Shown: piece after piece, positions 11,301 through 55,459 of the stretch | Numbering within the stretch: position 1 is the stretch's first letter | Layout: each line of letters starts with the position of its first letter | Origin: Acanthochlamys bracteata | Lineage: Eukaryota; Streptophyta; Magnoliopsida; Pandanales; Velloziaceae | Assembly: GCA_019914995.1 (NCBI GenBank) | Contig: CM034132.1 | Location: forward strand, 1,118,501 to 1,182,500 | DNA: 64,000 nt | Reading direction: 5' to 3' | Made by a program: the position numbers and the translations under genes | The notes under the pieces: model-generated | Seen by the model: only the letters and a program-made list of their open reading frames with translations | Database searches by the model: none | What the model was told of the DNA's origin: nothing

Positions 11301-12565
11301 AGACTGTAGCATGGACCTTTGTAATTGTGTGAGTAGAACTCAGAAAATTGTTCTTTTCTTTTCTCAATCTGTTATTTTTATAGCTTCATTCCAATCATTG
11401 AGGTAGTCGAGCCAAAAAAACTAGCTTATCACATACTTGGCTAACACTGTGATGACAGAATTACACATGCGCTGGCGTACTATATCTCTGTGAGTTTGTT
11501 GGGGAAAAGGAAGGCAAAATGCCAGAGTTTGTTCAGGTAGCTGCGTCAGTCCCAGATCTCATAATGCTTTTTACTTTGTGAGGTTGTTTGTAGTAATTGC
11601 ATATTCCTGCACTGTACTTAAGATTCTAACCCTTTTCTACAGGATTTTCCAAAACCTACTGTTGGCAAGCACGTGTTTCTGGGTTCTTCTCAAGTTAGAA
11701 GTCTGAAGGTCTCAATTTCTTTTAGTTTTTTATTAATATCGAAATATATCTCCTTTTGATGTTCCCATGTTTAACTTAATGGTAGTTGATTTACCTGCGT
11801 ATATACTTACTTTTCTGACTAATTTGCGCATGCTCTACAACTCTTACTTGTCCTATGAATACACAAACTTCAATGTCTCGTGCCACTAGTCTAAAGTGTT
11901 TGTGTTATATATTGAAATAGTGCTTGCTGTGCAGCTTAAATGTACAAACGTTGAACATTAAAAAGATGTCAGGTCTGGTGGGTGTAAGGCCCCTTGCCTT
12001 TTTCCTGCATGCCTCTAAATGTGATTGTCCAGCCTCCGTCCTTGATCTAGATATTGTTTCCATGTACGGTCCCAATTGGCATATTTTCCTAGTACCTGTA
12101 TACACAACTGTTTTGTGGACGGGTTTTTATTGTAGTTAAATTAGAAATGGAGAATATATTAGTTAATTTTCGTTTATTTGGATAATGTCTTAACCACCAT
12201 TTTCATTTTTAAAAATAAGTTTTAAGATCAGAGAATCTGTTATGATTTTTATTTCTTTCTCGAGTACCATTGCAGGGTCTGCAGCACATTGTAGAGGCGA
12301 TTGACTCAGGGAACTTTGGCAACTCCAAGACAGAAGCACTATTGCAGAATGATATCGACTCCTTTGACAAACCCAAGACCTTATCAAGGTTTGTAGCTTT
12401 ATTTGCATGGCATGAGTTAGTGGCGATGCTGTTATCTATTATTAGTTAGAAATGATTGTTCGGGATGCTTTTGTTTTGCACCATGTTATCAATTATTTAT
12501 GTATTATATGCTGATAGTGACTGTTAGTTGTTTGCTTGTTCAGGACTACTTCGATCAAGTGCTGA
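8323..12565 (+). CDS. DUF1664 family coiled-coil membrane protein
   Basis: The ATG at 8323 opens MATQVGLGLTRIALIAGAGFTGS, a hydrophobic N-terminus that could be an anchor. The exons then join in frame: VLRNGKLSDLLAELQ, NLVKGLEKSGEDG, VRRLATEVRQLALARPITVL, then ANATALIVPAATLGVLGYGY, a second hydrophobic segment followed by MWWKGISFSDLMYVTKRNMA, the signature of plant DUF1664 proteins. The next exons are long amphipathic coiled coil (TKHLEQVSAALTATKRHL; GLDGKLDEQKLISQDIKNEV). The last exons read GLQHIVEAIDSGNF and a short end LSRTTSIKC with TGA at 12563-12565. The family, once mislabelled bZIP, has no established biochemical role. Part of its 3' end is duplicated at 18.1-20.0 kb. Confidence 0.88.
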
Positions 12566-12969
12566 TGATACTGTATGACAACACCGGAAGAAGTGTGCCT
12601 GTTTATAGTACTGACATCTAATTTCTTATCTTCTTGCATGCAGCGCCCATATCAGGGTGGTTGAACCCCCTAACTGTGAGGTGTATGATTTACTTTATTA
12701 TGTTATCAGCTGTGTTTCTACTTTTTATTTGTATTAAGGGATTTTCAGAATAATAAAGACAAGTTTTAACTACTATCAATTTATTTGGTATTGTAATTTT
12801 GTAGCATATTTTTTTCATGCTGTGTCCATTGTTTGGAGATCTCAGTACAAATGCTACTACCATTACCATCTTTTAAGATCCATCGAAAGGTGTTTCTTAT
12901 CAGAATAAGACTTAAGATTGGATTAGTGAGATGTGTGTGCTGCGAGACCTAGTGTCATCGCTACGGAAC
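12566..12969. other. DUF1664 3' UTR and spacer
   Basis: This stretch follows the DUF1664 stop and should contain its 3' UTR; 'aataaag' at about 12750 could serve as a poly(A) signal. I see nothing else in it. Confidence 0.45.
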
Positions 12970-13165
12970 TGAGCAAGCAGGTAAAAACATGTTTGAGTGA
13001 TCGGTGGCTGAGCCGCTACCAGACTTATTAAAAGTCGGTCTTCTCTTGTCTCATGTTGATTTGTGGCTGCTAGTCTCTAAGTCTTCTACTTGAAAATTCT
13101 CATGACGCAGGAATTTTCTTCCTTCACTTTCAGAATAAAAGCATGGGAAAAATCTCAGTACAAAC
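12970..13165 (+). repeat. Single copy of the ~190-bp unit amplified at 21 kb
   Basis: This stretch contains 'gagccgctaccagacttatt', 'aaaagtcggtcttctcttgt' and 'ttccttcactttcagaataa' in order. The same blocks recur in tandem at 20965-21600. It is present once here, next to the peptide genes. Confidence 0.8.
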
Positions 13166-13223
13166 ATTATATACTTGACTACTACCCCACAGCAGTAGAA
13201 GTAGAAGAAAGCAAAGCGAAAAC

Positions 13224-13323
13224 ATGGCCTTGAAAGCTTTCTTTATTCTCACGGTACTGCTACTAGTTTCTAGTCATTTTGCCTTCTCTTTCGGCAGGGA
13301 ACTCTCTGATTCTACTACACCCA
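13224..13323 (+). pseudogene. Orphan first exon of a secreted-peptide paralogue
   Basis: The ATG at 13224 reads MALKAFFILTVLLLVSSHFA followed by FSFGRELSDSTTP, then a GTAAGC donor after phase 1. The signal peptide and the 'FGREL' block match the peptide gene at 15668 (SFGREL). No second exon follows before the next first exon at 13684. Joined to the acceptor at 13906/13907 it stays open for only about 17 more codons and misses the Cys tail. It may be a broken copy, or an alternative first exon for the downstream exon. I call it an exon fragment. Confidence 0.6.
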
Positions 13324-13683
13324 GTAAGCATTCCAACTTCTTAGTTCCTGACTGGCTAGAAGAATACATACACGTACAACTACAACTAGTGTGTTAACTT
13401 TCTATATGACCAGCAGGCACGAGTAACTAAAATCGGAGGAACCAAAACTCTTAATACCATATTTCGTTTCTTCTTAAAAAACTTTATATATGTCATGAAC
13501 TATTAACTACTTAATCTGGTTGGTGCATGCAGAATTAGAAGAAGAAATCTAAAAATGACAGCACAGCTATAATGACTCAAAAATCTTACGTCTTTAGGTC
13601 TTGATGTTAGAAATTCCCTCCTCAAAGATTTCCTGTATGTATATGAGCATGTATCCAGTAGATCAAATATAAACAAAGCTAAG

Positions 13684-14153
13684 ATGGCTTCCAGAGTGAT
13701 CATCATGATGATTTTCGTGCTTCTCCTTCTTACTAATATCGTCATATCTAGACAATTATTTCCACAACTCCGAAATCAGCAGTAAGTTCAATTTTTTTGT
13801 ATCCAAGAGTTCATAATTCCTTTTATTGTTGTTTTTCTTTTTTTCTAACTTGCGTATATGTATGAATTCCAGTTTAATTTCGCTGCTGTTGTTTTATTTG
13901 CTACAGAAAATGAAAAAGAAAAATACGTACTAAAAGTACAAAGGTGCTGCATCATGGATTAATGCCTGATCATGGTGCCTTAGATCCCCGTCCATCAGAT
14001 GGCTCCCATCAACCCGATCCTATAGTTCACTCTCCGGTTGGGGGTAGTCATATCCATTATGGTCCGCCTCCTCTTCTTCCCCGTCGTGGATGCAGTATAT
14101 ACGGATGTCGTGTTGGTGGTAATCCCCCCAGCCCTCCACCTCCAGCACCTTAA
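13684..14153 (+). pseudogene. Secreted Cys/Pro-rich peptide gene, copy A (reading frame doubtful)
   Basis: Exon 1 (13684-13781) encodes a signal peptide, MASRVIIMMIFVLLLLTNIV, then RQLFPQLRNQ and a GTAAGT donor leaving phase 2. The second exon ends in a clear mature domain, PPPLLPRRGCSIYGCR, then VGGNPPSPPPPAP and TAA at 14151-14153, closely related to copies B and C. Using the obvious acceptor CAG at 13904-13906, the joined frame meets TGA (13911-13913) almost at once. A weaker AG at 13935-13936 would give one open frame of about 105 codons. So it is either a pseudogene or a gene using a displaced acceptor. Transcript data would decide. A second possible first exon lies at 13224. Confidence 0.6.
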
Positions 14154-14603
14154 GATCAAATTTTGACAAGAGAAACAGTACTAAAGTATATTAAATTAAA
14201 TTCTGAATGTTATATATACCCGCATAGTGATCATGACTCCCAATCATGTAATGTCTTTGTGTTTCTGCTTATAAATATATAACACACGCAAGCGTTTAGT
14301 GAGCATTGTTTTAAGTTTTTAGGTTGAATTGGAATCTTTATTGGATCGACCGAATCTTTGGATGGAATCCTTATCTTCAATGTTAACATTAGCTCCTTTG
14401 GTAAATCTCCCTAATAAATGGTATAAAAACTGATGGTTGGTCTGGGTTCCAACCAGCGATGATCAGCATACGGTAGCTCTCGAAAATTGTAAAATATTTT
14501 TCATTCTAAAAAGTTGTATTTTATAAGCACTTTTAACGTTCCGTAAAAGCATTATGTCCCTCTTAAAACTTTGGTTTGGTGAGTGATGACATAAAGCAAG
14601 CTA

Positions 14604-15545
14604 GTCTTGAATCTCCTGAACATATGTAACTCTGAATTTTTTGCACGCAATCTTATCTGCTTCAATGCCTATACCTTCAATATCATGTAATCTTATATAA
14701 CAGTGCTCTTACCAGGCTATGTAATCTGCATATGCCAGCTTATGTACATGCCTAGCTACTTTGAGTTTATATATTAATTGCAAGCTCAAACTTTAGTTAG
14801 ATCAAGCTGATCGATCCTGTATTGAAATTGAAGTCGAGCATATATCATACAGGTACTCATGAATACTAACTATTACAGACGCTTGCTTTTCCTACTAAAA
14901 TTCGAAGATGTACATATGTAGTTAAGGAGAATTGATTTTCCATGATACATACTAATTCACCAAAAAATTAAGTGAGGTTTGCGGAAAAGAAGTTCAAAAA
15001 CATTGATCCGTTGCTACGTTTGGAATTATCATACTTTAAACCGCCGTTTATTAATTCTGATTTTTTTTGGCAAAAAGCAATTAATTTTAATGATAACATG
15101 ATCGATCAATACTAGTTAGTACAAATTGTGATGAATTTAAAATTTTTCTCAAAATTAATTGGTAATGAAAAAATAAGTCCAAAACTTTATAAATATAATC
15201 ACAAAATTATTAATAAGCAATGTAAAATTAAATCTTTCTTAACACATATCTTTCAAAAACATCGTTATATATATATTTTGCTGTATTGAAAATGAATTAA
15301 GAGTTTTAAGACCCAAGGTAATTTGAAGCCTACGAAGTCCCTAGTAAAAATCTCATGCTCATTCAAATGCAACCAGAACCAGATTCTATTTTCTATTGTT
15401 TGCTAGTTAATTTTGTTGGGTTTTTCCACGAAGTACTTCTCATTGACTCAAAGTCTTCACTTAGGTCTTCGTCTTCACTTTTTGTCTTGATTCAATAATG
15501 CACAGCATTCTTTCATACATGCTTGTAAAGAAACTTTTCAAGAAT
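14604..15545 (+). repeat. Segment duplicated at about 21595-22400
   Basis: Blocks such as 'aacatatgtaactctgaat', 'caatatcatgtaatcttata' and 'gaaccagattctatttctat' occur in the same order here and at 21610-22200. This is the 5' flank of peptide gene B, so each peptide unit appears to have been duplicated together with its upstream DNA. Apart from the duplicated promoter at its end, I see no gene in it. Confidence 0.8.
15427..15460 (+). promoter_or_regulatory. Conserved upstream block with W-box core (gene B)
   Basis: 'cacgaagtacttctcattga' followed by 'ctcaaagtcttcac' is conserved upstream of gene C (17210-17240) and of broken copy D (22303-22336). It contains TTGACT, the W-box core bound by WRKY factors, overlapping TGACTCA. 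It sits about 125 bases above the TATA box. The regulatory role is inferred from conservation and motif. Confidence 0.55.
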
Positions 15546-15581
15546 TAAACATAATATCTTATTACCAAACGTTTCGAGAAC

Positions 15582-15589
15582 TATAAATA
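15582..15589 (+). promoter_or_regulatory. TATA box of peptide gene B
   Basis: TATAAATA lies 86 bases before the ATG at 15668. Gene C has the same box at nearly the same distance (78 bases), supporting it as the core promoter. Confidence 0.65.
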
Positions 15590-15667
15590 AAGGGAGTTAT
15601 AACCTATAGTGATCATTCAATTGATTCTCTGTGATCACAGGCAACGGCAACAAGTGCTAGCTAGAAC

Positions 15668-16093
15668 ATGGCTTCAAAAGCTTACTTCGTGCTCATTCTC
15701 CTGATGCTTTCTTGTCTCCTTACCGCTTCTTTCGGCCGTGAACTGCAAGGAGTACACTCTTATCTCCAACACCAGTAAGTACATGCATGTAATATACAAA
15801 TTCAATCAACCATGAATTTGTGTAACAATATGCTACTAGCTAGGAAGGTTAATTCGAAGCTGCAGGTATATATCCTTTATTCCTTTTCTTTTGCGCGTAA
15901 TTAATTTTCTGGCTTTCTTGTTGTTGCAGAAGAAGAAGAGAACAGACCATTACCTGCTTATGAGGCATTAGGCCCGGGTCCTGTTTGTAGAGGACCCGGG
16001 CCTTATGCAGGTCACTGTTTCCCATCCCCGAAGCGTCCCCCCGGCTGTAACAAGATCTATGGCTGTCGTTCGACTCCGCCGGCAACACCTTAA
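15668..16093 (+). CDS. Small secreted Cys/Pro-rich peptide, copy B
   Basis: The ATG at 15668 opens a signal peptide, MASKAYFVLILLMLSCLLTA, then SFGRELQGVHSYLQHQ and a GTAAGT donor at 15775. The second exon holds AYEALGPGPVCRGPGPYAGH, then KRPPGCNKIYGCRSTPPATP and TAA at 16091-16093. The mature part has four cysteines; the last two form the family motif GCxxIYGCR. The first CAG acceptor (15927-15929) does not fit the phase-2 donor, but the AG at 15944-15945 does and gives an open protein of roughly 84 residues. Gene C uses the phase-1 arrangement, so B either shifted its acceptor or is frameshifted. The promoter block and TATA box are intact. I do not recognise a named peptide family; a secreted signalling or defence peptide is plausible. 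Confidence 0.65.
15970..16003 (+). repeat. Perfect 13-bp inverted repeat inside the gene B coding exon
   Basis: AGGCCCGGGTCCT (15970-15982) and AGGACCCGGGCCT (15991-16003) are exact reverse complements around an 8-base loop. The stem is almost pure G/C in an AT-rich region. In protein it encodes GPGP-VCR-GPGP. It should form a strong hairpin in RNA. Confidence 0.9.
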
Positions 16094-17209
16094 TTAAGAG
16101 AAGAAGGTTGTTGATCATGAACATCTCAGTCTTAAATTCTCAATTCCGAAACAATAATTTCAATAAATACATGTGAACCTTTGCTTCAACTCCTAAGCAT
16201 CGATATCGATGTTATGTATTACTGAAGAAATAAAGCTAGGTTTGCTAGCTGCTCTACGTACGTATTTATTTGGTGCATATCTCATCTTAAGATTATATCT
16301 TCATGTTATGAAATGTATTGTAACAGAAAAATTGCAGAAAATCTTGAATAAAGGTTGTTTTATATATATTATATCACCGGAATTTTGAACAAACGATAAT
16401 ATACTTCTAAATTAGAACGGAGTTTGTCTTGAGATTTTTCGAAAAATGATCTTGATTTTTTTATCTAAAAAGAGTAGATATATAAAAAGATTCTACGACA
16501 TTAAATTCACATATACTTTTCAAAATCTTAAAATTTTTTTTTAAAAGTATTATAAGATATTTATAGAAAAATATGGAAGCTTTTTCAAAATAAAAAATAG
16601 TGCCAAATAAAATACTCTCTTAATAATGTTAGATAAGCCCTGACTAGAACTGCACCTATAAAACTAACGCAAGTGAAGAGGGCAATCAAATTCATATAAA
16701 TGAGTTAAGAAGTCGAACGGGAGGGCGACACTAGGACGAAAACATCGACAAATATTATGTATTATTCGATATTGCAGCCAGTTGTTCTCTTACCAAGCCA
16801 CATGCTCTGAGTTAATTTACCAACACAAACTTCTACAGTGTATATCAAAGGCACAAACTTCTACAGTGTATATCAAAGGCACAAACTTTAGATCATTAAT
16901 CTAGCTCCATCGGTTTTAAAATTTAATTAACAAACTGATTGATCGTATGTTGAAAGTTCTAAGCATCATACAAGCACTCATGATATCCTAATTACAAGAA
17001 AACAGAAAATAAACAAAAAATTTTCACAAACATAGCTATATAAGTCTGAAAATATTGGAAATGGCATGTATGATGATAAGCAACATATGGTCACCCAAGT
17101 ACGTGAAGCCTGTGAAGACAAGTCTCTACAGCAATCTATCTTCATTCAAATGGAACTACATTAATTATTTCATTTTATTTTCGAGAGTTAAATTTGTACA
17201 TTAGTTTTC
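16094..17209. other. Spacer between peptide genes B and C
   Basis: This is AT-rich DNA with no gene seen. At 16826-16885 a 30-base unit, 'cacaaacttctacagtgtat' plus 'atcaaaggc', is repeated directly, followed by a third partial 'cacaaactt'. The rest is the gene B 3' flank and the gene C upstream region. Confidence 0.6.
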
Positions 17210-17240
17210 CGTGAAGTACTTGTCATTGACTCCAAGTATT
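17210..17240 (+). promoter_or_regulatory. Conserved upstream block with W-box core (gene C)
   Basis: 'gtgaagtacttgtcattgac' followed by 'tccaagtattc' matches the block before gene B and contains TTGACT. A TATAAATA box follows at 17363-17370, 78 bases before the ATG. Confidence 0.55.
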
Positions 17241-17440
17241 CTCTCTATTACTATTAGTTTTTATTAATTGATTCAATTATAGAAAAGTCTCCAGAATTTT
17301 ATTATTTCTTCTAAGGAAAAACATTCAAAAGAATAGATACAAATTATTCCTCGCAACGTTTCTATAAATAAGTGAGTGACCATTCATTCATCCATTCGCC
17401 AGTACTCACAGGCTTAACAAGAGAAGAAGTTACAACATAT

Positions 17441-17785
17441 ATGGCTTCAAAAACATTCTTCATACTCATGTTGCTACTGCTTTATTCTTGTTTCTTTACC
17501 ACTTCTTATGGTCTCCAACTGCAACAGCACTCTAACTCCGATATCAGTCAGTACACATATATACGATTGCTATACACATACGAACATTAGTTCCTTTCGC
17601 ATAATCAATTACTAAGAAGTGAATTGATCGTTGTTAGTGTTGTTTTTGTCGTTGCAGATCAAGAAGGTAGCGCAAGCGAGAAAACAGTTACTGCTATACC
17701 TTATCACGCCCTCGCCCCCAAAGCCTTGTGGCCTCGCCGTGGTTGTAAACCCTATGAAGGATGTCGGCCACCGTCAACACCTTAA
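17441..17785 (+). CDS. Small secreted Cys/Pro-rich peptide, copy C
   Basis: This is the cleanest member of the family. Exon 1 (17441-17546) encodes signal peptide MASKTFFILMLLLLYSCFFT then SYGLQLQQHSNSDI and ends in phase 1 at a GTCAGT donor. Exon 2 (17658-17785) joins in frame after a good polypyrimidine tract and TTGCAG, giving NQEGSASEKTVTAIPYHALA, then LWPRRGCKPYEGCRPPSTP and TAA. The total is 77 residues. The predicted mature region has just two cysteines, in RRGCxxYxGCRPPSTP. The dibasic RR before the motif could be a processing site, and the two cysteines could form one disulphide ring; both are inference. No match to CLE, CEP, RALF, PSK, PIP or EPF peptides is evident by eye. W-box and TATA elements lie upstream. 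Confidence 0.75.
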
Positions 17786-18216
17786 GAAAATTAATCGTTG
17801 GGCACGATCGATCTCAAATCAGAGACGATACATATATATATATGAGCCTTTTGCTCTTAGCATAATCAAGAATAAAATTGGTTTCCTAGCTTTTTATGCT
17901 TGCAACTATATAGAGATATATGTGTGTGTATGTTATGTACAATTTCATGATATTATATTACGTATTTCTTAAGATAAGGAGAATAAAATTGGGTTTTCTG
18001 ACTAAATAATTAATTTTCTGTTATAATTTAGCTGATTAAGATATTAGTTTCTCATCTAAAAGACTCTCTATGACTCTATTACAATGGACTCTATATTCTT
18101 CGTAAGGGATCGTGTGCATGCTTTTCTTGGTTCTTCCAAAAGTTAGAAGTCATCTGAAGGTCTCAATTTCTTTAAGTTTTGAGATATATCTCCTGTTCAT
18201 GTTTCACAGGTTAGTG

Positions 18217-18472
18217 GCTGTTTGGCACTACTTATCATAAACAATTTTTTAATTTTTTTTAATTTCATATTTTTAATACATATTTTATAAATATTTAAAA
18301 ATTTTATTTAAAAATTTAGATAGTGTAAAAAATTCTACGAAGTGAGATCTTTTTATTACATATTTTTATTTTTATTTTTGAAAATAAAAAAAATAAAGCT
18401 CATTTTTAAATCAAAATAAAAATATTTTTAATTTTAAAAAAATTTTATTTTATAAGCACTATCAAAATGCAC
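18217..18472 (+). mobile_element. MITE copy 1 (GGGxGCGTTTGG family) with known empty site
   Basis: The left end is 'tggctgtttggcactactta' and the right end 'ataagcactatcaaaatgca' + cc. The interior is the shared AT-rich consensus (tattttataaatatttaaaa ... aaaaataaaaatattttta). The flank TAG is repeated on both sides. In the parental DUF1664 intron (about 11780-11790) the flanks are continuous, 'ggtagttgattt', so the insertion is precise. Confidence 0.85.
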
Positions 18473-18640
18473 CTAGTTGATTAACCTGCGAATACTTTGT
18501 TTTCTGACTAAATTGCAAATGCTCTAGAACTCTTGCTTGTCCTATACATACACAAACTTCAATGTCTTGTGCCACTTCTCTAAGTATTTTGTGTTATATT
18601 ATGATATAGTGCTTGCTGTGCACCTTTTAATACATTAGTT

Positions 18641-19655
18641 GGACCTTAACGGTATGTTTGAATACATGATTAAAAAATAAAAGATAAAAGTAAGAGCGTA
18701 GATTTGAAAATAATAAAAAGATGGATAAAAAGATAACTATTTAATTTTATAATATTTAAATATATAGTAAAAATAACGAACTAATTATATTTAAATAGAT
18801 AGATAAATGAATGAGTAAATAAAGTAAATTTTTTCATAAAAGACTTCAACACTTTTTTTATTTATATTAATCTAATTTTTATTAATATAAATTTAAATTA
18901 ATTTAAATAATATAACTTAAATTAATTTTATTAATATAATTTTTAGACTAATTTTTTATATTAATTTAATTTTTTCATTAATTTTTGATATAATTTAACA
19001 AAAATTAAATAAATTTTGAATTAAAAAATATGATCATATAATTTTAGTATTTTTTCTACCAAATAAAATTAATTAAACTTAAATAAATATAAAAATTATA
19101 AATTATATAATAAAAGTAATATATATTAATTAAAATAAATATTAAATTAAGAATATCTAACTAATAAAAATTAAAAAAATAAAAAGATAAAAAGAAAAAT
19201 AAATTTGTTTTTCTCTTTGTCACAATATGTACCCATCAAATTCACCATGAAACATGATGATGGAAGGAGAATTGCTCACCTGCCTTTTCATTAATAAAAT
19301 CAAAATAAACTTAGGTAGATAAAGAAATTGCTTTACTTTCACCATCCCTCTTCATGTGTATCTACAATACAAACAGTCCGTAAGAGCGTATTTTTTTGGA
19401 AAAGAATTAAGTTACTAAAAGTAAGTTATTTAAAAAGTAAATATTAAAAATGAGTTTAATTGTTGGGTTTATTTTGTATTGAAAGTGGTTTTAAAATAAA
19501 AAATTTTAGTTATAAAAATTGAATTTTAGAAGTAGAGTTTTTGCCAAAAAAACTGAATTAACTTTGTATTTATTTTGTTTAGAAAGTGAATTAAAGTGAA
19601 ATTTTTAACCCAAAAAACTGAGTTCAAAATATTGATAAACATGCCCTAAAAGGAT
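18641..19655. mobile_element. AT-rich insert, ~1 kb, unclassified
   Basis: It interrupts the DUF1664 copy relative to about 11955-11965. The left end contains 'ggtatgtttgaatacatg' and the right end 'ttgataaacatgccctaa'. Read on opposite strands these are similar (GGTATGTTT / GGGCATGTTT), suggesting an inverted-repeat element. A second apparent edge, 'gagcgtatttttttgg' at 19385, hints at two elements side by side. There is no coding capacity. Confidence 0.5.
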
Positions 19656-20273
19656 GTTCATTCTGGTGGGTGGGTGTAAGGTCTGCCGCCTTTTGCCTCC
19701 ATGCGTAAATGTGATTGTGCAACTTCTATCCTTATCAAGATATTATTTCCACAATTGGCATATTTTCCTAGTACCCGTATGCTCAACTGTTTTGTGGACA
19801 AATTTTGTTGTAGTTAAATAAGAGTGGACAATATATTAGTTAATCGTTCATTATTCTAAATAATATTTTAACCTTAAATAACGTTTAAGATTTATGATTA
19901 GAGAATCCAAGACAGAAACACTATTGCAGAATGATATCAACTCCTACGATAAACCAAAGACTTTATGGAGGTTTGTAGCTTGATTTGCATGGCATAACTT
20001 CGTGGCATCTGTTTCTGTATATTAAATGCCAAAAATTTATTACATCATGGGCTTCAAGCTATTCAAGTTATGTAATTTATCTAAAAGAGTAAGGAATTTG
20101 AATTTTATTAAAAATATTTAAATTTTAGTAAAAAAATAATATTTGTTTATGTAGTTAAGAATTCTATATAGAAATTCTATATAGTATTTGTTTATGAATT
20201 TTTATAAAAAAAACTCTATCTTGTATGATAAAAGATTAATATTAAGTGTTCAAATTAAGTTAAAATTCTAATC

Positions 20274-20950
20274 TGTTGAGCTTCCAAGTTAGATTAGGTC
20301 CGAATTAGTAAAGTGTGAGCTTGATGGGCCCGAGTCAAAGACATGCTAGCTAATTTAGAGATGGGCCAGTAACTCGCTTTGGATTGGGCCAAGTGGACTA
20401 TAATTTGGTGGGCTTAATAGTTTACGCTTTTTAATAGTCCTACATTGGCTAGGTGCTGGAATAGATATGTGCTTATAAGTGGAGGATGCTAATTTGTAAA
20501 AAGTTGGTCAATTCTTTTAGTATGAAGATCCGATCTAACAATTGGTATTAGAATCTGGTAGGGTGGAGCACCCGACGTGTTGTTAGAGAGCAAATTGTTG
20601 GGCCTCTAAATTAGACTAAATTCGGATTAGTAGCGTGGGCTTAATGGATCTGAACGAAAGACGGACTAAATAATTGGGAAATGAGCCAGCAATTTGGTAT
20701 TAGAGTCTGGTAGGGTGGAGCACCCGACGTGTTGTTAGAGAGCAAATTGTTGGGCCTCCAAATTAGACTAAATTCGGATTAGTAGCATGGGCTTAATGGA
20801 TCTGAATGAAAGAAGGACTAAATAATTGAGAGGTGGGCCAGCAATTTGCTTTAGGTTGTGCCAAATGAATTCTAATTTTGTGAGCTTAACAGCTCATAGC
20901 CCTTAATAGTCTGGAATGAATATGTACTTATAAAAGATTGGCCAACTTAT
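20274..20950 (+). mobile_element. Fossil TRIM (miniature LTR retroelement), tandem form
   Basis: An LTR-like block (20274-20540) starts TGTTGAGC and ends CTAACA. It is followed directly by 'ttggtattagaatctggtag', which resembles the initiator-methionine tRNA primer site used by plant TRIM/Copia elements. After a very short internal region a second, shortened LTR-like copy starts at about 20596, then the internal region again, then a third LTR-like copy from about 20748 to about 20950. There is no coding region, as expected for TRIMs. The repeats have diverged visibly, so it is old, and it is broken and non-functional. Confidence 0.7.
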
Positions 20951-20964
20951 ATTAAGAATTTTCA

Positions 20965-21600
20965 TGATGTAGAAATTTTCTTCCTTCACTTTCAGAAGAA
21001 GAACATGAAAAAAATGTCTGTATAAGCAGGCAAATTTTGAGGGAAGTCTACCGGAGACTGATCCGCTACCAGACTTAATTATTAAAGTCGGTCTTCTCTT
21101 GTATCATGTTGATTTATGGCTATCTAAGTCTTAATTTTCTATTTAAAAATTCTCATGAGGCAAGAATTTTTTTCTTTCACTTTCAAAAGAAAAGAATAGA
21201 AAAAACCTCTCTTAAGCAGGCAAATTTTTAGGAAAGCCTACCGGAGACTGATCCGCTATCAGACTTATTAAAAGTCGGTCTTCTCTTGTATGATTGTATC
21301 ATGTCGATTTGTGGCAGTTTTAGTCTTGGTCTTCTATTAAAAGATTCTCATGACGCAAGAATTTGCTTTCTTCACTTTCAGAAGAAAAGCATGAAAAAAA
21401 ATTTCTGTCCAAACAGGCAAAATTTGAGGGAAGCCTGAGACTGATCCACTACAAGACTTAGTAAAAGTCGGTCTTCTCTTGTATCATATTGAATTGTGGT
21501 TGTCCTAGTCTTAGTCTTCTATTTAAAAATTCTCATGACGCTGGAACTTACTTACTTCACTTTCAGAATAAAAGCACGGAAAGAATCTCTGTACTAGTGT
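20965..21600 (+). repeat. Tandem ~190-bp repeats, 3-4 copies
   Basis: The block 'agtcggtcttctcttgt' recurs at about 21086, 21272 and 21466, giving periods of 186 and 194 bases. Each is preceded by 'gagactgatcc' and followed by 'attctcatgacg' and 'ttcactttcag'. The unit exists once at 12970-13165, so this is a local amplification after the segmental duplication. Confidence 0.9.
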
Positions 21601-22400
21601 TGAATCTCCCGAACATATGTAACTCTGAATGTTTTGCCCGCAATCAGATCTTGTTCAATGCCTATACCTTCAATATCATGTAATCTTATATAACAGTGTT
21701 CTTACCAGGCTACGTGATCTGCATATGCCAGCTTATGTACATACCTAGCTACTTTGAGTTTATATATTGAAAGCTCAAACTTTAGTTAGGTCAAGCTGAT
21801 CGCTCTTGTATTGAAATTAAATTCAAGCATATACCATACACTCATGAATACTATACAGACACTTGCTTTTCCTCCTAAAATTCGAAGATATATATATGTA
21901 GTTAAGGAGAATTGATTTTCCATGATACATACTAATTCACTAGAAATTTAAAAGCGAGGTATGGGGAAAAGAGGTTCAGAAACATCGATCAGTTGCTACG
22001 TTTTGGAATCATCATGCCTTAAACAGCCGTCAATATCAATTCTGATAACATGATCGCTATGTACCTTCAGGAAACACCGTTATGTATGTTTGCATTTGAA
22101 ATGTAATCCGTGTTTTAAGACCCAAGGTAATTTGAATTTTATGAAGTCCCTAGTAAAATCATATGCTCATTCAAATGCAACCAGAACCAGATTCTATTTC
22201 TATTGTTTGCTAGGTAATTTTGTTTGCTAGATAATCATCTCATGCTCATTCGATTGCAACCAGATCCAGATTCTATTTCTACTGTTTTGCTAGTTTAATT
22301 TTCCACGAAGTACTTGTCATTGATTCAAAGTCATCACTTAGGTCTACTTCTTCCCTTTTTGTCTTGATTCATGAGTTCATCACAGTTTCTTTACCAGTAT
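21595..22400 (+). repeat. Second copy of the 14604-15545 segment
   Basis: This segment is collinear with 14604-15545. Within it, 22150-22300 holds a further direct duplication of about 80 bases around 'gctcattcaaatgcaaccag' / 'gctcattcgattgcaaccag'. It carries a mutated promoter block (22303-22336) in which TTGACT has become TTGATT. Peptide copy A has no counterpart in this arm. Confidence 0.8.
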
Positions 22401-22631
22401 TTCTTATGGCCACCCAACTGCAAGAGCACTCTAATAAACGCAAATATCAGTTAGTATACTATTGCTTTATACCAACATTTCTTTCATATATAATTAATTT
22501 CTAAGAAGTGAATTGTTGTTTCTTGTTATTCTTGCATGTCAAGAAGTTAGCGAATGCAAAGAGAAAACAGTTAGCACTGTGCCTTGTCGCTGTGGTCAAT
22601 GTCTTTTGGGACCGCCACCGGGCAACACCTT
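22384..22631 (+). pseudogene. Broken secreted-peptide gene, copy D
   Basis: The exon 1 remnant, 'tttctttaccagtatttctt' then 'atggccacccaactgcaaga', matches the end of the gene C signal exon, but the first part with the start is gone. The exon 2 remnant (about 22543-22631) aligns with gene C ('gagaaaacagtta', 'caacaccttaag') but no longer keeps a frame through the Cys tail. The 3' flank ('attaatcgtt', 'acatatatat') also matches gene C. This is a clear pseudogene. Confidence 0.8.
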
Positions 22632-23048
22632 AAGAAGATTAATCGTTGATCATGATGCATGATCGATTTCAGATCAGAAAAAATACATATATATGAACCT
22701 GTTGTTCTTATAGAAATAAAGTTTCCTAGCTTTCTATGCATGCAACTATGTATGAATGATATACGTACAAGTTCATAGTATTGTATTTGGTATTTCGTAA
22801 GTTAAGGAGAATAAAATTTCATACATACATATAAACCATGTAAACCAGAGCAGATATTACAAATACGTGCATTATATAATTAGCTCATGAAGCTAGCTTG
22901 CACATGTACATCTCTTAAGTTTATAAGAAAGCATATATACTACATATATATATTGGTGGGATAGAAGAGATTACATTATTTTCATAATAAAAGAGATTAT
23001 TTCCTCTGGCTAATTTGTTTAGGTTTATTTTCTCTTCTATATATACGA

Positions 23049-23387
23049 CTAAGGCTTAAGGTGATGACATGATTTGCATATCGGATAAGTTCTAACTGGG
23101 TGTCCATAAGCAGGGGGGAAAGGGCCGTATAAAGGGAGCAGACGCCGTATCGGACGATCTTGAAACACAAATTGCAAAAGCATTATTAGTACAGAAAATT
23201 GAAATTCTTGAACAGAATGTAGTATATATATCAGGATTGGTGTAGATCGATGTGTACACTTTGATAAGGGCTTTGTTGTTGCAGCAGCTTCGGAGGCGGC
23301 GCCGGCGGTGATGGAAATTAGAACACTGCAAAGAATCAGTACGACTATCCAGAAACTGTTATTGCTGAAAGAAAGTTTTTGGTCCAT
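23049..23387 (-). CDS. Small secreted Pro-rich peptide on the opposite strand, copy E
   Basis: The ATG at 23387 opens a short polar start, MDQKLSFSNNSFW, then a hydrophobic segment IVVLILCSVLISITAGAA, a good signal peptide. Exon 1 (23387-23258) ends in phase 1 at a GTACAC donor. Exon 2 (23158-23049) follows TTTCAAG and reads YRPIRRLLPLYGPFPPAYGH, then PVRTYPICKSCHHLKP and TAG, 79 residues in all. The exon layout, phase and Pro-rich tail with two cysteines (here CKSC) follow the pattern of genes B and C, but the tail sequence differs and the strand is reversed. It could be a distant family member or an unrelated peptide gene that happens to share the layout. The donor is not the strongest, so the splice model needs transcript support. 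Confidence 0.55.
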   Translation of the reverse strand: MDQKLSFSNNSFWIVVLILCSVLISITAGAASEAAATTKPLSKCTHRSTPILIYILHSVQEFQFSVLIMLLQFVFQDRPIRRLLPLYGPFPPAYGHPVRTYPICKSCHHLKP

Positions 23388-23726: not shown

Positions 23727-24153
23727 ATTCGTAGCTGAACGAGTCGTGTTTGAATTTTTACGGGATTAATTTTCAAGTCTTGTTTTTACTTGTTGAAAAT
23801 ATAATCTACATTTTTCCAGTGTTTCCTATTTTCACATTAATTAGCTACTCAATTTTCTTGCAGATATCGAACTTTTTGTCTCTACGCGCAAGAATCAAAA
23901 TGCAGGTCAAGTACTCTCCCTAACTCAAATGTTTCATAAATGCATGATGTTAGAAATCTTGGACGTAATCTTTCGACGACAAAGTATCGACTGGATTGTG
24001 GAGGCCTAATCACAACTTGCATCCCCTGAAACTTGTACACTTCAAAGTCATTGCCAATCTCCAAACAAGTCAACCATGCCATTAACTTTCTAACACAAAA
24101 ACCTATATAACAGTTAGGACATACTGAAATCTGAGATCTACTTACATTCATCA

Positions 24154-27100
24154 ATGTATACTACAAGTAGCAAGAGTAGTACAACCTTTGCATTGCTCCT
24201 CTTGTTCTTCTTTGTGGCTCCAACACTAGCAAATGACATGTTAGCTTTGCTTTCATTCAAATCTGTCATACATGACCCATCACAAGTTTTGGATTCATGG
24301 AACAATCACAACACTTCTTCACTTGATTACCACTACTGCAACTGGCTTGGAGTTTCATGTGGTTTACGACATCGACGAGTTGTGACGCTCGATCTTAGCT
24401 CTCTCAACATCTCCGGCAAGATATCTCCATACCTTGCAAACCTGACGTTCCTACGGAGACTTCATCTTGGTAACAACCAGCTTCATGGACACATCCCTTA
24501 TGAGCTAGGCTTTCTTCGGAGATTAGAACTTCTCAATCTCTCCGCAAACCATTTGAGCGGCAGGATTCCAGCCACTTTATCGCACTGCAGTCGTCTGCAG
24601 AACTTAAACTTGAGAGACAATTTACTGCAAGGACAGATTTCCAAAAACCTCAGTGGTTTGCTTGAGCTGCAAACACTAAGCTTAGCTAATAACAAGCTTG
24701 TCGGTGGGCTTGCAGGTGAGTTCGGTACGCTACCGAAGCTTACTAATCTCTATCTCCCTGCTAACGCTCTCACTGGTCGTCTCCCTCCGCTTCTCGGCAG
24801 CATCAGTTCACTTGAATACGTTAACCTCTGGGGCAATAGCTTCACCGGCAAGATTCCTCCCTTTCTTGCTAACAGTTCTTCGCTTACCTATCTCATCCTG
24901 GCGAACAACAGCCTTACTGGAAAAATCCGAGAAGCAATCGGCAACAGCTCTTCGCTTACTTATCTTGATCTTTCCCAAAATCTTCTGACCGGAAGCATCC
25001 CGCCAGCACTAGGTAATCTTACAGCCATCAGTACACTCTATCTCGAAGAAAATAATCTTGGTGGAAGTATTCCGGAGAGCTTAGGCAATCTTGTAGGGCT
25101 GCAAAGTCTCGATCTTACCAGAACTTCTTTGTCCGGTGAGATCCCTTCGTCTGTCTTCAACCTTTCGTTGATGATTGACTTGTACTTGGGGGGTAACACA
25201 CTCACTGGAGTCCTTCCATCAAGCATGGGTGATGGATTCCCTGAGTTAAAAACGCTAATCATGCAAGAAAACAACTTCAGTGGGCAGATTCCGATAACCT
25301 TGTCCAACGCTTCCCGGCTTGAGATTGTCAATCTTGCTAACAACAACTTCACTGGCTACCTTCCGCATAATATCGGATCACTAGGAGCTCTCCTTGAGTT
25401 GAGATTAAGTCAGAATCATCTTCGAAGTGATGATGTAAGCTTCTTCTTCGAGTCCTTGACAAACTGCAACCTATTGAAAAGATTGTATCTCAACGACAAC
25501 CAGATCACCGGATCATTGCCGGAATCTGTTGGCAATCTTTCAAAACAATTGCAGTTGCTGGTGATCTCTCAGAACCAAATATACGGAAACATTCCTTAAG
25601 AGATAGGAAATCTAGGAAAAATTTCTGTATTGTTCATGGATGAAAATCTTCTGACCGGAAGCATTCCAGAAAGCATCGGCAAGCTTCAGAATCTACACGT
25701 ACTTTACCTGTCTGGAAATAGACTTTCCGGCCCTGTACCCTATACCTTTGGAAACCTTACTTTGTTGAACGAGTTGAACTTATCTAGCAACAATCTGGGT
25801 GGAATTATACCTTCAGCTCTAGGTAATTGCACACAACTTGTAATGCTAAACTTATCCTATAATGCATTCGTTGGAAGTATACCCAGAGAAGTGGTTAGCA
25901 TTTCGTCGCTCTCGCAGTCGCTTGATCTATCCAACAACAAGCTCACCGGGTCCATTCCATTGGAGATTAGCAACCTGAGAAACCTTGGTCGACTGGACTT
26001 GTCTGAGAATAAGCTTTCCGGTGAAATTCCAGCAACTCTAGGAGCTTGTGAGCTGCTTCAATACTTGCATGTAGAAGGCAACTTGCTTCAAGGAACCATT
26101 GATAGCCCCTTCAGGAATTTGAAATCGTTGATAGAGATCGATCTTTCCAGGAACAATCTATCAGGTGACATACCAGAGTTCTTTTCGACCTCTGCATCCT
26201 TGCAGTATCTTAATCTTTCATTCAACGATTTCGAAGGGGAGGTACCCAAGGGTAACGTCTTTGATAATGCGAGTGAGCTTTTTGTGTTCGGTAACAAGAA
26301 GCTCTGCGGCGGTGATTCTTACTTGCAGCTACCACCTTGTCCAACAACTCAAGGCAAACACAAGAATATCAAAGATTATCGCTGGTTCCAAATTCTGATC
26401 ACAGTTTTATCTGCTGCGGCAATAGCAGTTGTTTGTGTGCTTTTTTGCCTTTACAAGACAAGAAAGGCAGGAAACCAGGTTTCAACTGGTGACGCAGTGA
26501 GCAACAGGTATCCGAAAGTTTCTTATGTGGAGCTCCTCAAGGCGACTGATGGCTTCGCATTGGAAAATCGGATCGGTAGCGGAAGTTTTGGCTTCGTTTA
26601 CAGAGGAAGATTAGAAGGTTATCAGAATCCAGTTGCAGTGAAGGTGCTTAACCTTGACCAGAGAAGAGCACTCAAGAATTTCAAAGCAGAATGTGAGGCA
26701 TTGAGGAACATTAGACACAGGCATCTGGTGAAGATCATAACAGCATGCTCAAGTATTGATTCTAAAGGAACCGTTTTCCAAGCCTTGGTTTTCAATTTCA
26801 TGCCTAACGGTAGCTTGGAAGAATGGTTGCACCCAGGAGTTCATTCACCAAGAAAGCTCATTCTAAAACAGAGATTGAAAATAGTTATTGATGTAGCCAC
26901 TGCAATAGATTACCTCCATCATGGGTGCGAACCGCCATTGATACACTGCGATCTGAAGCCGAGTAATGTTCTTCTCGACGGAAACATGAATGCCCTTGTT
27001 AGTGACTTTGGATTGGCAAGATTTCTTCAGAGCTCCAGCTTCAAAGGATCGATGACCGAGTCATCTAGCCTGACAGGATTGAGAGGCTCCATTGGTTATA

Positions 27101-27552
27101 TTGCACCAGGTACTAGTGCAAAATATATAATTCATGAATTTTGCTAATTCTTTCTACGTAAACAATTCTTCACTCTATTTGCACATGCAGAGTATGGAAT
27201 GGGTAGCCCACCATCAACACAAGGAGATGTGTACAGCTTCGGGATTATGTTGCTAGAAATGCTTACGGGAAAGAAGCCGACCAATGAACAATTCAGCAAT
27301 GGCCAAAACCTTCATCAGTTTGTTAACAGAGCTTTCCCTGAAAAAATATCGGAGATTTTAGACACTCAAATATTACTGGAAGAAATAGTAATGGCTGATA
27401 CCAGTACCGACGAAAGTAACCATATAGAGCAAGTATACGATTACCTTTACTTGTTGTTTGAAATTGGCCTTTCATGCACAAAGGAATCACCAAAAGAACG
27501 TATACAGATCAAGGATGTTATAAGCAAGTTACATCTAAAATTCAAGATTTGA
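24154..27552 (+). pseudogene. Class XII LRR receptor-like kinase with one internal stop codon
   Basis: The ATG at 24154 opens a signal peptide ([15 protein letters not shown]), the LRR cap [16 protein letters not shown] with CNWLGVSC, and some twenty LRRs of the xxLxxLxLxxNxLxGxIP type. A membrane segment follows (ILITVLSAAAIAVVCVLFCL), then a kinase with G-loop IGSGSFGFVYRG, lysine in VAVKVL, catalytic loop HCDLKPSN (non-RD, typical of immune receptors), DFG, and GLRGSIGYIAP. One intron (27110-27190) splits the kinase at the position conserved in class XII and rejoins in frame as PEYGMGS. The whole frame is 1106 codons including the terminal stop. The only lesion is TAA at 25597-25599, within GNIP-stop-EIGNL where relatives have K or Q, so one base change explains it. 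Without readthrough only LRRs would be secreted. Could be a recent pseudogene, a null allele or a sequencing error. Confidence 0.9.
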
Positions 27553-40814: not shown

Positions 40815-43800
40815 GATTCTACTATTGAGAAGTGGCATATTGATGCTTACTATTCAGCTGGTGAAACACTTAAAGGTCATAGAGCGAGAGTAACTTGTAT
40901 GAGGTATGCTACCCTGAGTTGAATATCCACAAGTTGTTGTTTTAATGAGAAAGCAAGCAATCTTTGCTTGTAAAGTTGACTTAAATGTTATGATTTTTAT
41001 AGTACTTCGCATTCCTAGCTCCTTTTTTCTAGTTTATGGTAGTAGGGGCTCTATTTCATCAACTTGTTTTGTATTTTTTGGTTTCAAATCTGATAGGAAG
41101 GAGCTCAAGTTAAACTTGGTACTCTTAAATTGTAAGGATTCCTATTCTTTTCAACAATTGCTGAGGTTTCAGGTAATGCTAATAAGATTTGAAACAGAGA
41201 ATGATAATGCAGGCTGCGTTCTTCGGAACAATACATTAGATCCATTATTACATATTTCGATCAAATAAGAATTCCTTACTCTGGCTGCCTCTGTGTGATC
41301 TTCTTTGGGGGTTCAAGCATAGATGCTAGTAAACATTTTCTTTGCCTTTATTAATACTAATATAGTTCATCTTTTTCTCAGATTGTTTTCGTTGACTGAA
41401 ACAAGTTTATACCGGAGTGAGATACAAAAGGAGGAAAAAGTTTTGGTGACTGCAAGTTCTGACCGTACTATACGCATGTGGTGGAAGGTTATGATCAGTT
41501 TCTTAGCTTTAGACATTCCCTGCGCTGCATCTGTTCTGCCCCCTTAATGCTCTAAGTTTTTGCATTAGTTACGGCACATTTATGCGTTAGTATTTGTAGC
41601 TGATCGGACTTGTAAGTCAAATCATTATTCTTGCTCTTTATTATACTTTTCAGATATGATTTTGGAAAGCAAAGGTTTATTTTGGTTCTTCATGGAAGTA
41701 GAAAGATAGATGGGTCTTAACTGAGATTGCTAAGGCATATACGATGGGGGCGTTTGGTAGTGCTTATGAAATGGAGCTTTTCTGAAATGGAAAGTATTTT
41801 TGTCTTTTTTGAAAAAACGAGCTCTATTTTTTTTACTTCCAAAAAAATAATAAAAATATGTAATAAAAAGATCTCACTCCGTAGAATTTTTCTACACTTT
41901 CTAAATTTTTAAATAAATTTTTTATGTATTTATAAAATATGTATTGAAAAACGTAAAATAGAAAAAAGTTGATAAGCAGCTTTTCATAAGCTGCGCCAAA
42001 CGCTCCCGATGTTGTGTGAAAAGTCTACATGGTTTACAACTTTAAATGCTTAAAATGATCTTTGTATAATTAAGCGTGAGACTTATTTTAGCTAATCTTT
42101 TGCCATAGGGTCATACACATCGTTGTTTTAAGGGTCACAATGGTCCTGTTACTTCTTTGAGTGAAAGGTTGCTTGGTGATTGTGGAACAAAACTGTTGGC
42201 TAGTGGGGCAGAAGATTGTACTGTTCACCTATGGTCCATTGCTTCAAGTGGGAAGAGCCATCCTCTTGCGGCAACATATTATGGCCATGAGAAACCCATT
42301 TTTTCCTTATCTGTTGCTAGGTATGTGCACCCTTTCAAGTGTTTGCTAGTATTGCATGTCTTGGTGCATGTTCTTAGTGAAGCCTTTGCTTTCTGGAATG
42401 GAGTAAATTTGGCGTATTTCCTCTTGTTCTATAAACATACTTGAAACGACTCGTGAATGGATCCCTTGTATATGTTTGTAAAGTGCTTTCGTTTAGGGAA
42501 GCTTTTCTATACTTCGTTTCAACTTCGTTATACTTTTTGAGAGAGAATGTTCATCATAGAAATTTTAATTTTTTCCACTGGGAGCTTAAGTTTCTTAGTT
42601 ATCTCCTTTGTGGGTTATTAGGCACAAAGCTTACCTCTTGGTAAGCATCTCCAAGGACTCAAAGGTACACGAAGGCATCCTATTTTTAATTTTTTACTAC
42701 TTTTATGTTGGCCAATGTTAACAATCTTTGTTTCTCTTTTACATATAACTGCCTGGATGATTTATTCATTGTGTATGCCCGGTACAAAGGGTAGACTGCT
42801 GAACAATATGTAGAATTTTATTTATTTATGATGTATGTCTGCCATTGTCATTTTCCCAAAAAGAAACAGATTTTCTTAGCTCTTCTTTTAATTTTCAGGT
42901 CAGGGTTTGGGACACAACTCTATCCACATCCTCCAGTTCATCGCCATGTGTGGGAATGGCTTCTGTGGCAGGTCATCCAGTCGGTGTGAGATGTGATGAG
43001 GCGCTGTGCTACATTGCTGCAGGTTCATCTGTTATTGCAATTGACCTCAGAACTATGCAAAAAGTTTTTACTAGCGCATGTCACCTCCCTAAGATTCATT
43101 CTTTTGAAATGCTTCCCTCGAAAGGGTTGATCTGCACTGGTGGGCAGGGCAAGTATGTCAGCATTTTTATGCATCTTACTATTTCTTGCCTTTGCTGTCA
43201 GCTTTTAGTTGCACTTCCTTTCAACATTTGTATGTTGAGTGTTGAAAGTACATTCTGTTGCTGTGTTTTCTAAGGGGCTTTCTTCTATCTATCTTTCCTA
43301 GTACATCATTTGTTGAAGTACCAATCTGTTGCTGTGTTTTCTAAGGGGCTTTTTACTCTATCTAATCTTCAAAGCACATGATTTTAACTTTCAGTTGATT
43401 CTCAAACGTTTTTGTTGATTTAGTTAATGCACAAATGGAGTTGAATTAAGATTTTAGTCTTACTTGTTTTTTTTACACATTGACTTTTTCAGCTTAATTT
43501 ATTTGTTGTGACTATATAGTATTATGGGAGTTTTAGAGTTGTGATCAGTACCTGTTTGTTACAATATTGCGACTTTTGCTTGCCGTGGATATGACAACTC
43601 ACATCAGCTTGATCACTTATATGAGGATAACAAACACGTAATGCTTGGTAGCTATAGCAAATATGAAATACTCACCAGTACGAGGGCTTTATTGCTACCA
43701 AATATGGAATATTATTATTTGGTAAAGTAGTGAGATAACTATATTATCCTCATTGCTCCAGAGCATTGCTTTGGGACATCCGCATGAGCCAAGAGAAGCC

Positions 43801-44143: not shown

Positions 44144-44810
44144 CTTTGTACCATAGAGTTGTCGTCTTTAGGTGTCATCAGCTTATGTATATCTAGTATA
44201 TCAATATTTCTTGTCAATTTCTTATTGTAGAGTTTTTGTAATTGTTTTGACTAGTGCAACGGTAACTCCCACAAGCTGTTGTGTTCTTCTGTAGATAATA
44301 CTGCTTCCTATAGTTATAATTTTCATTTTGTTTGTCATTTCTAGTAGTAGTCTTTTTTTATTGTTCTGGTCAAGAAATGGGTGCCTTAATAACGCGATTG
44401 TTGTTGATCAAGGATTACCATTGAGACTTTTGAGCCAAATTGTTTGACATTTGAAGTGAATTATTAATCTTATGCACTTATAGTCCAATTTCTTCTATGA
44501 AGGGTTTTGTTGATCAAGATTATGGAGAGGTCAAACGATTGCCATCTACTTGTCGTTTTAAACTCATGTCAATGGAGCTTTCTAGCAAACAAGGTACTAT
44601 TTCTTTTCTTTAGAAAATTTTTGGATTCCATTCATGTGTAATTTTCTTTAATCTGGGATTTGTTTTCAATTACATTGAAATTGTGCTGCAGGTTCATGTT
44701 ATTTTTTAACTGAGAAGGGAGTAGGTGGGTTAATCTTTTCACTTATATATACACAGCAACGCTGCTTGACTTATCATTTCCCATGTTTAATTTCCTACTG
44801 ACTGCATTTA

Positions 44811-45050
44811 GTAGTGCATATCAAATATAATTTTTTAATGTTTTTTATTTTATATTTTTTAATATATATTTTATAAATATTTAAAAATTTATTTAAAAAT
44901 TAGATAATATAGAAAAATTTTACCTAATGAGATTTTTTTATTACATATTTTTTATTATTTTTTAAAAGTAAAAAAAATAAAACTCGTTTTTCAAAAAAAT
45001 AAAAAATACTTCTTATTTTAAAAAAAATTTATTTTATAACACTATCAAAT
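44811..45050 (+). mobile_element. MITE copy 5, degraded ends
   Basis: 'gtagtgcatatcaaatataa' at the left and 'cactatcaaatctgtt' at the right bracket the family's AT-rich interior in + orientation. Confidence 0.7.
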
Positions 45051-46082
45051 CTGTTAAATATAAACTTAATACTATTATTTATTAATTTTAATGACAGCTA
45101 TGTGTTGATCAAGTGTTGGTTATAGTAATCAATCTTCGTGGAAGAAGGAGGTCATAGTGATTTGAGAAATCTTGGATTTGTTTCTGTTAGGTTCACCTAA
45201 ATTTAAATCAATATGGAAGAAATGTTTCTCCTCTTTCAGCAATAACTTTTTGAAAGTCAGTGAAGACTTGATTATGAACACTTTCATATACTTTTTTTCA
45301 GAACTTGAAGAGAAACTAATGGTTGTTAACTTGTAGCTTGATATTGTTTATGAGACTTGTTGCTGTTTATTAAGAAGTCAATCTGAATTCTGAAGAAGAT
45401 ACAGGATCAATTCTTCAACTGGTGTTTTCGAGATTGCTTATTCGATATTAGGAATGCAAAAATCTTACTTGAATCGGTTTTATTAATAAGGAACTACATT
45501 CTTATATATGTTTATGTATAATCAACAGCTCTACATCATCTGGAGTCTTAATTTCAATGCTTGATCAAAGCATTGACCTGCTTTGATATTATATTGCATT
45601 TTGTTTTTATTTTACAAGAATATGATCATCGCACGAAGACTTTGAAAAAAAAAAGGAATTTTTTTTTTAAGCTACAATTTCTTATGTTTGATGTAATTTG
45701 ATCGTAGTCAGTTGCATTTCTTATGATTATTAGTTGAACTTAAGTATACGCTAACGTATATAATTAATGAAAAAGTCGTAGAATAAGTCTGTATAAGTTC
45801 AAGTTTTGAAACAGATACTTCTTAACAGATATTACCAATCTTAATAAAATACAATATTTTGGCCTTAAAATAAGAAAATGGAAAATTTTCTTCAATGCTA
45901 AATGTTCCTTTCGTACAAGGTCTAATTTTCTTTTATTTCTCCTAATTATGAAAAGAACTAATTCTTATATGATAAAGAATATTTGCTGGTAGACAAGAAA
46001 ATATGATTCATTTGTTGGGAAAAAGATCGTGAATAGTGTTGAAAGGTTTTTCTTCTTATTGTTTTTTTTGGATTTAACCATA

Positions 46083-46340
46083 GGGGGCGTTTGGCACAGC
46101 TTACATGAACTGTTTATCAATTTTTTTTCATTTTATATTTTTTAATATATATTTTATAAATATATAAAAAATTTATTTAAAAATTTGAAAAGTGTAGAAA
46201 AATTTACGGAGTGAGATCTTTTTATTGCATAGTTTTATTATTTTTTTAAAAGTAAAAAAAATAGAGCTTATTTTAAAAAAAAATAAAAATACTTTTTATT
46301 TCAAAATATTTTCATTTCATAAGTAATTACAAACGCCCCT
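46083..46340 (+). mobile_element. MITE copy 6, nearly complete
   Basis: The left end is GGGGGCGTTTGGCACAGCTT and the right end ACAAACGCCCCT. ATA flanks both sides. Confidence 0.85.
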
Positions 46341-47703: not shown

Positions 47704-47950
47704 AGGTGCAATTAGTGCGCATCTTTTCAATTTTTCACCATTTCATATTTTTTAATATATATTTTATAAATATTTAAAAAATTTATTTAAAAATTTAAAT
47801 AGTATAAAAAAATTTTATATAATAAGATTTTTTTATTGCATATTATTATTATTTTTTTAAAGTAAAAAAAATATAGCTTATTTTTCAAAAAAAATAAAAA
47901 TATCTTTTATTTTAAAAATACTCTATTTTATAAGTCATCCCAAACGCAAT
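47704..47950 (+). mobile_element. MITE copy 7, degraded
   Basis: 'ggtgcaattagtgcgcatct' at the left, the shared interior, and 'tcatcccaaacgcaat' at the right. Confidence 0.7.
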
Positions 47951-55446: not shown

Positions 55447-55459
55447 CTGATCAGTTGTT

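Follow-up and report, generated by a model that had tools for sequence, protein, structure and literature searches.

What kind of gene family lies behind a cluster of short reading frames between positions 13,224 and 23,387 of a 64-kb stretch of Acanthochlamys bracteata DNA (contig CM034132.1; hereafter the window, meaning the whole stretch)? The window looks like plant DNA, with split, intron-containing genes, a DUF1664 gene and a receptor kinase gene among its contents, and our evidence base comprises the window, protein-family libraries, PDB sequences and published papers, the last represented here by excerpts. We label the exon at 13224 O, the three copies that bear a shared tail motif A, B and C, a C-like remnant D, and a frame on the minus strand E. 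We favour, tentatively and at a little under even confidence, a locally duplicated and partly decayed family of small pre-pro-peptides whose tail would serve as an extracellular signal. Our confidence is clearly higher that this is a real family of peptide genes, and lower that it descends from the RALF peptides.

The first evidence for a family is the tail. In a six-frame search of the window, the motif GC-x2/3-Y-(x)-GCR occurs only at 14082-14111, 16040-16069 and 17735-17767, as RRGCSIYGCR in A (14082), PGCNKIYGCR in B (16040) and RRGCKPYEGCR in C (17735). These three occurrences compare with none in 100 dinucleotide-preserving shuffles of the window, and the looser GC-x4/5-CR is found four times against a shuffle mean of 0.24. 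All three copies continue from the motif into a Pro-rich end and a stop, bearing out the common ending named in the original prediction. By blastp, the exon 2 tails of A and C are 58% identical over 26 amino acids and those of B and C 52% over 21, and A and B share 35% over 51 amino acids of exon 2, linker included. The two cysteines of the conserved motif lie four or five residues apart. Across the core codons for G, C, Y, G, C and R, each pair of copies shows three or four synonymous differences (proportion of synonymous differences, pS, 0.72-1.00); the complete lack of amino-acid change there follows from how the codons were chosen, and it is the high synonymous divergence of the six codons that shows the tail to be old and to have been retained through a long divergence of the copies. 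The strings IYGCR, YEGCR, GCNKIYGC, RRGCSIYG and RRGCKPY had no occurrence in the literature searched, which covered papers rather than proteomes, and a literature search for a peptide family fitting the tail returned none among the matches listed.

Kinship is also visible at the other end of the genes. The signal-peptide-like exons of O (13224), B (15668) and C (17441), judged by eye to encode similar hydrophobic N-termini, are 56-57% identical (blastp E 2e-9 to 4e-7): the first exons of B and C share 57% amino-acid identity (E 2e-9), and O matches those of C and B with E 9e-8 and 4e-7, respectively. By this similarity the three exons are paralogous. The ratio of nonsynonymous to synonymous divergence (dN/dS) is approximately 0.56 for B and C and 0.28 for B and O, from only 26-27 codons; for C and O, pS is 0.75 and dS is not computable. 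The exon at 13684, which had been proposed as the first exon of A, has no convincing similarity to those of B, C and O (best blastp E ~0.05).

Can leader and tail be joined into working genes? Splice models were built from chosen joins and then from every GT-AG pair near the exon ends, the chosen models being re-spliced, with the quality of splice sites assessed by eye. All of the models lie on the plus strand. C gives the cleanest one, in which a signal-peptide-like exon 1 (17441-17546; donor TCA/GTCAGT, phase 1) joins exon 2 (17658-17785) at the pyrimidine-rich acceptor ttgcag/ATC, yielding a protein of 77 amino acids with AIPY ahead of the motif at 17735-17767. In B, the signal-peptide-like exon 1 (15668-15774, phase 2) ends in a GTAAGT donor that is in frame solely with the acceptor at 15946, giving exon 2 at 15946-16093 and an 84-residue protein with the cysteine array C-x9-C-x9-C-x5-C and GCNKIYGCR; the pyrimidine-rich acceptor at 15930 keeps the frame solely with a weaker donor, GTGAAC at 15737 (77 amino acids), so that the best donor and the best acceptor are out of frame with each other. 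The second exon of A (13984-14153, acceptor uncertain) holds the tail at 14082-14111 and its Pro-rich end. From the 13684 exon (13684-13781), an alternative or false start for this gene, the pyrimidine-rich acceptor soon runs into an in-frame stop, and two others, 12 and 30 bases downstream of it, give open joins. The signal-peptide-like exon O (13224-13323, MALKAFFILTVLLLVSSHFAFSFGRELSDSTTP; donor CCA/GTAAGC, phase 1), first taken for an orphan, joins exon 2 of A in frame at 13984, 13999 or 14026, all of them poor acceptor sites; the first two joins give 89 and 84 amino acids, with the same phase and the same junction asparagine as C. Mainly because O is the homologue of the first exons of B and C, O and A may be one gene, which we rate as no more than possible to likely.

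In-frame GT-AG joins are easy to find (11 of 28 pairs in C, 8 of 40 in B, 4 of 32 in A from 13684 and 4 of 62 in A from 13224), so an open join alone proves little. C is the likeliest of the genes to be functional, and O+A and B are plausible. The architecture originally ascribed to all working models, a signal exon, an intron and a short second exon, is clean in C but not in the others.

That B and A need non-obvious splicing weighs against the reading we favour and raises an alternative, that most or all copies in a decaying cluster are pseudogenes and the motif a relic. D, recorded from the outset as a pseudogene, supports such decay: lying at 22385-22818 on the plus strand, it aligns by blastn to 17490-17990 at 66% identity and resembles C from inside exon 1 onward, through the intron and the 3' untranslated region, and a 30-column gap in the alignment takes out GCKPYEGCR, leaving D without the GCR motif. 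In B and A, the splice sites that look best leave the tail out of frame, a receptor kinase gene next to the cluster has an in-frame stop, and a copy of a DUF1664 gene is fragmentary. C is nevertheless intact, and the core codons have been kept in three copies despite much-diverged synonymous sites; we consider it very unlikely that decay is the whole story.

If the copies form a small pre-pro-peptide family, what does their tail resemble? RGC(5N)C is a named landmark of RALF peptides in a survey of soybean (PMC9583537); it is exact in C, PGC-x5-C in B and RGC-x4-C in A. RALF8, as represented in the PDB, ends in RRGCGVLEGCHRETGPKPT, close to RRGCKPYEGCRPPSTP in C, with RRGC-GVLEG-C matching RRGC-KPYEG-C. 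Upstream of RGC, an xIxY element appears as HIHY in A and AIPY in C, with LPAY in B, and the pattern xIxY-x4/45-RGC-x4/5-C occurs within the window in A and C only, a count not compared with shuffles. Aligned by hhalign with a profile of RALF1, 4 and 8, the three-copy profile matched over 13 columns with a probability of 84% (P 7.8e-6). Against a seven-RALF profile, four rows of which are provisional sequences, A, B and C were equalled or exceeded by 12, 91 and 18 of 5000 shuffles, respectively. In the ranking of the 1651 segments reported among 2107 in the window, those containing A, C and B came 3rd, 7th and 11th; the scores of D and E were 0.4 and -0.3 bits. On a profile of RALF8 alone, 2 of 5000 shuffles did as well as C, which ranked first among the segments of the window. 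The original prediction had found no match to RALF. The landmark, the xIxY element and the hhalign result weaken that exclusion, which was made too quickly, while the Pfam family for RALF indeed finds no copy.

Several results, however, weigh against a RALF-like tail and hence against part of our preferred reading. B lacks xIxY and has PGC, and A has C-x4-C. Two other window segments outscore every copy on the seven-RALF profile, and on the RALF8-only profile A (402 of 5000 shuffles) and B (363 of 5000) are unremarkable. At E up to 10, Pfam RALF (PF05498) recognised none of the sequences A, B, C and O+A and none of the tails, with RALF1 and RALF8 scoring 79.1 and 46.5 bits as controls; a profile built without RALF8 gave RALF8 25.6 bits, compared with 10.8 for A, 4.6 for C and 1.9 for B. 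Searches of PDB sequences with B (from an out-of-phase join), C and the three-copy profile returned no RALF. Of the RALF cysteines, A and C retain the last pair only (x4 in A), the first two being absent, and altering the first two cysteines of RALF1 is reported to affect its activity as well (PMC9113046); B has four, at spacings that differ from the x9-x12-x5 of RALF1. The RRXL site of S1P cleavage was not found in the translations of A, B, C or O+A. Finally, the signal exon and tail of C are joined only through GT-AG splicing, and nearly all RALF genes described in the excerpts of two surveys are intronless, FveRALF15 and GmRALF11 being rare exceptions (PMC7098601, PMC9583537).

Some of these departures are known within the RALF family itself. 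Clade IV RALFs, to which RALF8 belongs (PF05498, PDB 6nu4), mostly lack YISY and RRXL, the latter being almost absent from the clade; their cysteines vary, many keep xIxY and their mean length is 88 amino acids, and many RALFs carry extra C-terminal residues (PMC5258720). Ten of 61 Brassica napus RALFs keep only cysteines 1-2 or 3-4 (PMC9113046), and fungal and nematode RALFs generally lack the first disulphide (PMC9583537). The cluster resembles clade IV in its signal-peptide-like start, short precursor and tandem copies, in the RGC-x5-C tail of C, in the xIxY of A and C and in the residues past the last cysteine, and differs from RALFs in its lack of a Pfam match, of RRXL in A, B, C and O and of the first cysteine pair in A and C, as well as in the shorter middle of B, the single intron and the Pro-rich end. 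Conceivably, the copies are genuine if divergent RALF-related genes of clade IV in which an intron was gained and the first disulphide lost, an idea to which the variability of that clade, the one-pair B. napus members and the C-terminus of RALF8 lend support. But the copies are Pfam-negative where RALF8 is strongly positive, their profile scores fall far under its own and the intron is present, and we regard such descent as unlikely. Given the negative Pfam result, the low profile scores and the intron, the tail may work like that of a RALF without the genes being filed as RALFs; as their sequences stand, we describe them as RALF-tail-like and place them outside the family.

For the pre-pro-peptide family that we favour, we propose the following model. 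The precursor would be secreted and its linker removed, leaving a short Pro-rich tail that would be closed by one disulphide ring. The ring tail would then serve as an extracellular signal, with wounding, defence and cell-wall sensing as the likeliest settings. As the ring resembles the C-terminal hairpin of RALFs (RGC-x5-C), its likeliest mode of action would be to bind RALF-type partners, either as a competitor or as a weak agonist. It is possible rather than established that a one-ring tail acts by itself. A more specific version, in which the plant makes a new family of single-disulphide RALF-tail mimics that modulate or block the perception of RALFs in tissue under attack, would recall the fungal and nematode RALFs without the first disulphide, but encoded by the plant; we hold this to be decidedly unlikely. 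Should C prove expressed and active, it would provide a tiny ring peptide, easy to synthesise, with which to probe the RALF C-terminal hairpin alone, and an example of plant peptide-gene families born and lost through local duplication; should it prove inactive, the locus would be an ordinary decaying tandem array.

Could the family instead consist of orphan, lineage-specific defence peptides, possibly ligands of the neighbouring receptor or antimicrobials, with no RALF descent at all? The precedent is poplar RISP and the small proteins associated with LRR receptor-like protein genes (SPUFs), small secreted cysteine-containing peptides (secretion being predicted here) encoded near a leucine-rich repeat (LRR) receptor gene. 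A plus-strand LRR receptor kinase gene (24118-27552, with Pfam LRR and kinase matches) adjoins the cluster, its frame starting approximately 6.3 kb beyond the end of C and 0.7 kb beyond E, and REL follows the leader as GRELQ in B and GREL in O, at about the place of AARELLQ in RISP. REL after the signal peptide is common in plant precursors, and we dropped this likeness as a lead. Poplar clusters of LRR receptor-like protein genes are interspersed with orphan small-protein genes (PMC3975113, PMC4756128), and RISP is a secreted, cationic protein of 82 amino acids with cysteines at 48, 55, 70 and 79 and AARELLQ after the leader (PMC3975113, PMC4756128). B has neither this arrangement nor an adjoining gene for an LRR receptor-like protein. 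Its cysteine spacings of x9, x9 and x5 contrast with x6, x14 and x8 in RISP, a comparison made without the full RISP sequence; RISP has a single paralogue in poplar, and the receptor gene next to it encodes a receptor-like protein whereas the neighbour here is a kinase. A narrow literature search for further RISP papers found none. In addition, the receptor kinase frame, otherwise open into the kinase domain, contains an in-frame TAA (25597-25599) inside the leucine-rich repeats, so that, as assembled here, the gene makes an unconvincing candidate for an intact partner, and the stop weakens the story of a ligand-receptor pair. Orphan defence peptides of this type seem to us possible, if somewhat unlikely.

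Other families fare no better as a home for the tail. The CTNIP/SCREW stress peptides have a short C-terminal region with two essential cysteines, but these are 9-11 residues apart (PMC9191895), compared with 4-5 in the cluster tails. Nothing scored above a cut-off when A, B, C, O+A, E and the three tails were run against Pfam, B and C against NCBIfam, or the three-copy profile and the single copies B and C against PDB sequences. Three hits at chance level were dropped: DUF4692 for O+A (E 0.22), a fimbrial-like NCBIfam model for C (E 0.2) and contactin-2 in the PDB for B (E 1.7). AlphaFold, given B with A and C in the alignment, produced a model too poor to use (mean pLDDT 52.1, pTM 0.17); the low predicted confidence fits a disordered peptide and proves nothing.

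E (23049-23387, minus strand), once suggested as a possible relative, is an open frame of 112 amino acids with a hydrophobic N-terminus and no need of an intron. It has no convincing similarity to the cluster copies (best blastp E 0.03) and no Pfam match at E 0.01, leaving membership of the family unsupported; a penaeidin match (E 0.18) was at chance level and dropped. The initial picture, in which small pre-pro-peptide-like genes sharing a conserved C-terminal tail are clustered, is supported, though with no convincing kinship for E or the 13684 exon. E carries RRLL, resembling the RRXL site of RALFs, and a Pro- and Tyr-rich end with C-x2-C.

How did the cluster arise? Pieces of a block at 11676-15494, comprising the 3' portion of the DUF1664 gene, a repeat, the flank of A and the promoter of B, recur at 18123-22371 with approximately 76-88% identity in a self-comparison of the window, and D follows. 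D, at 66% identity to C, is less alike than these flanks and therefore need not be a simple copy of C. On this pattern, the locus appears to have grown by block duplication, with genes born and lost locally. A stretch downstream of C (18123-20024) repeats fragments of the DUF1664 3' region (11676-12444), apparently a remnant that travelled with the duplicated block. Several diverged repeat copies with a period of approximately 190 bases occupy 20946-21594, with one more at 13002-13166.

B and C also share a promoter block (15430-15590 and 17213-17371, plus strand), with TTGACT at 15443 and 17226, CTATAAATAA at 15581 and 17362, and the common string GAAGTACTT[CG]TCATTGACTC; by blastn, 15349-15461 and 17133-17244 are 72% identical over 116 bases (E 3.7e-6). 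The block recurs in D, where TTGATT takes the place of TTGACT. TTGACT is the W-box core bound by WRKY factors, and its presence in the block hints at stress induction and is no proof of it. With 29 occurrences of TTGAC[CT] across the window and 33 of its complement, only the aligned block of B and C carries weight.

Elsewhere in the window lie the DUF1664 gene, its exons judged by eye, frames with Pfam matches to class I tRNA synthetases (E and Q), WD40 and histone deacetylase, and a WRKY frame scoring slightly under the Pfam cut-off. An AT-rich dispersed element of approximately 250 bases, which looks like a miniature transposable element, is present in at least six copies in both orientations (18212-18466, 41744-42011, 44807-45051, 46079-46351, 47723-47947 and 55176-55448), 79-87% alike in the 12 pairs reported.

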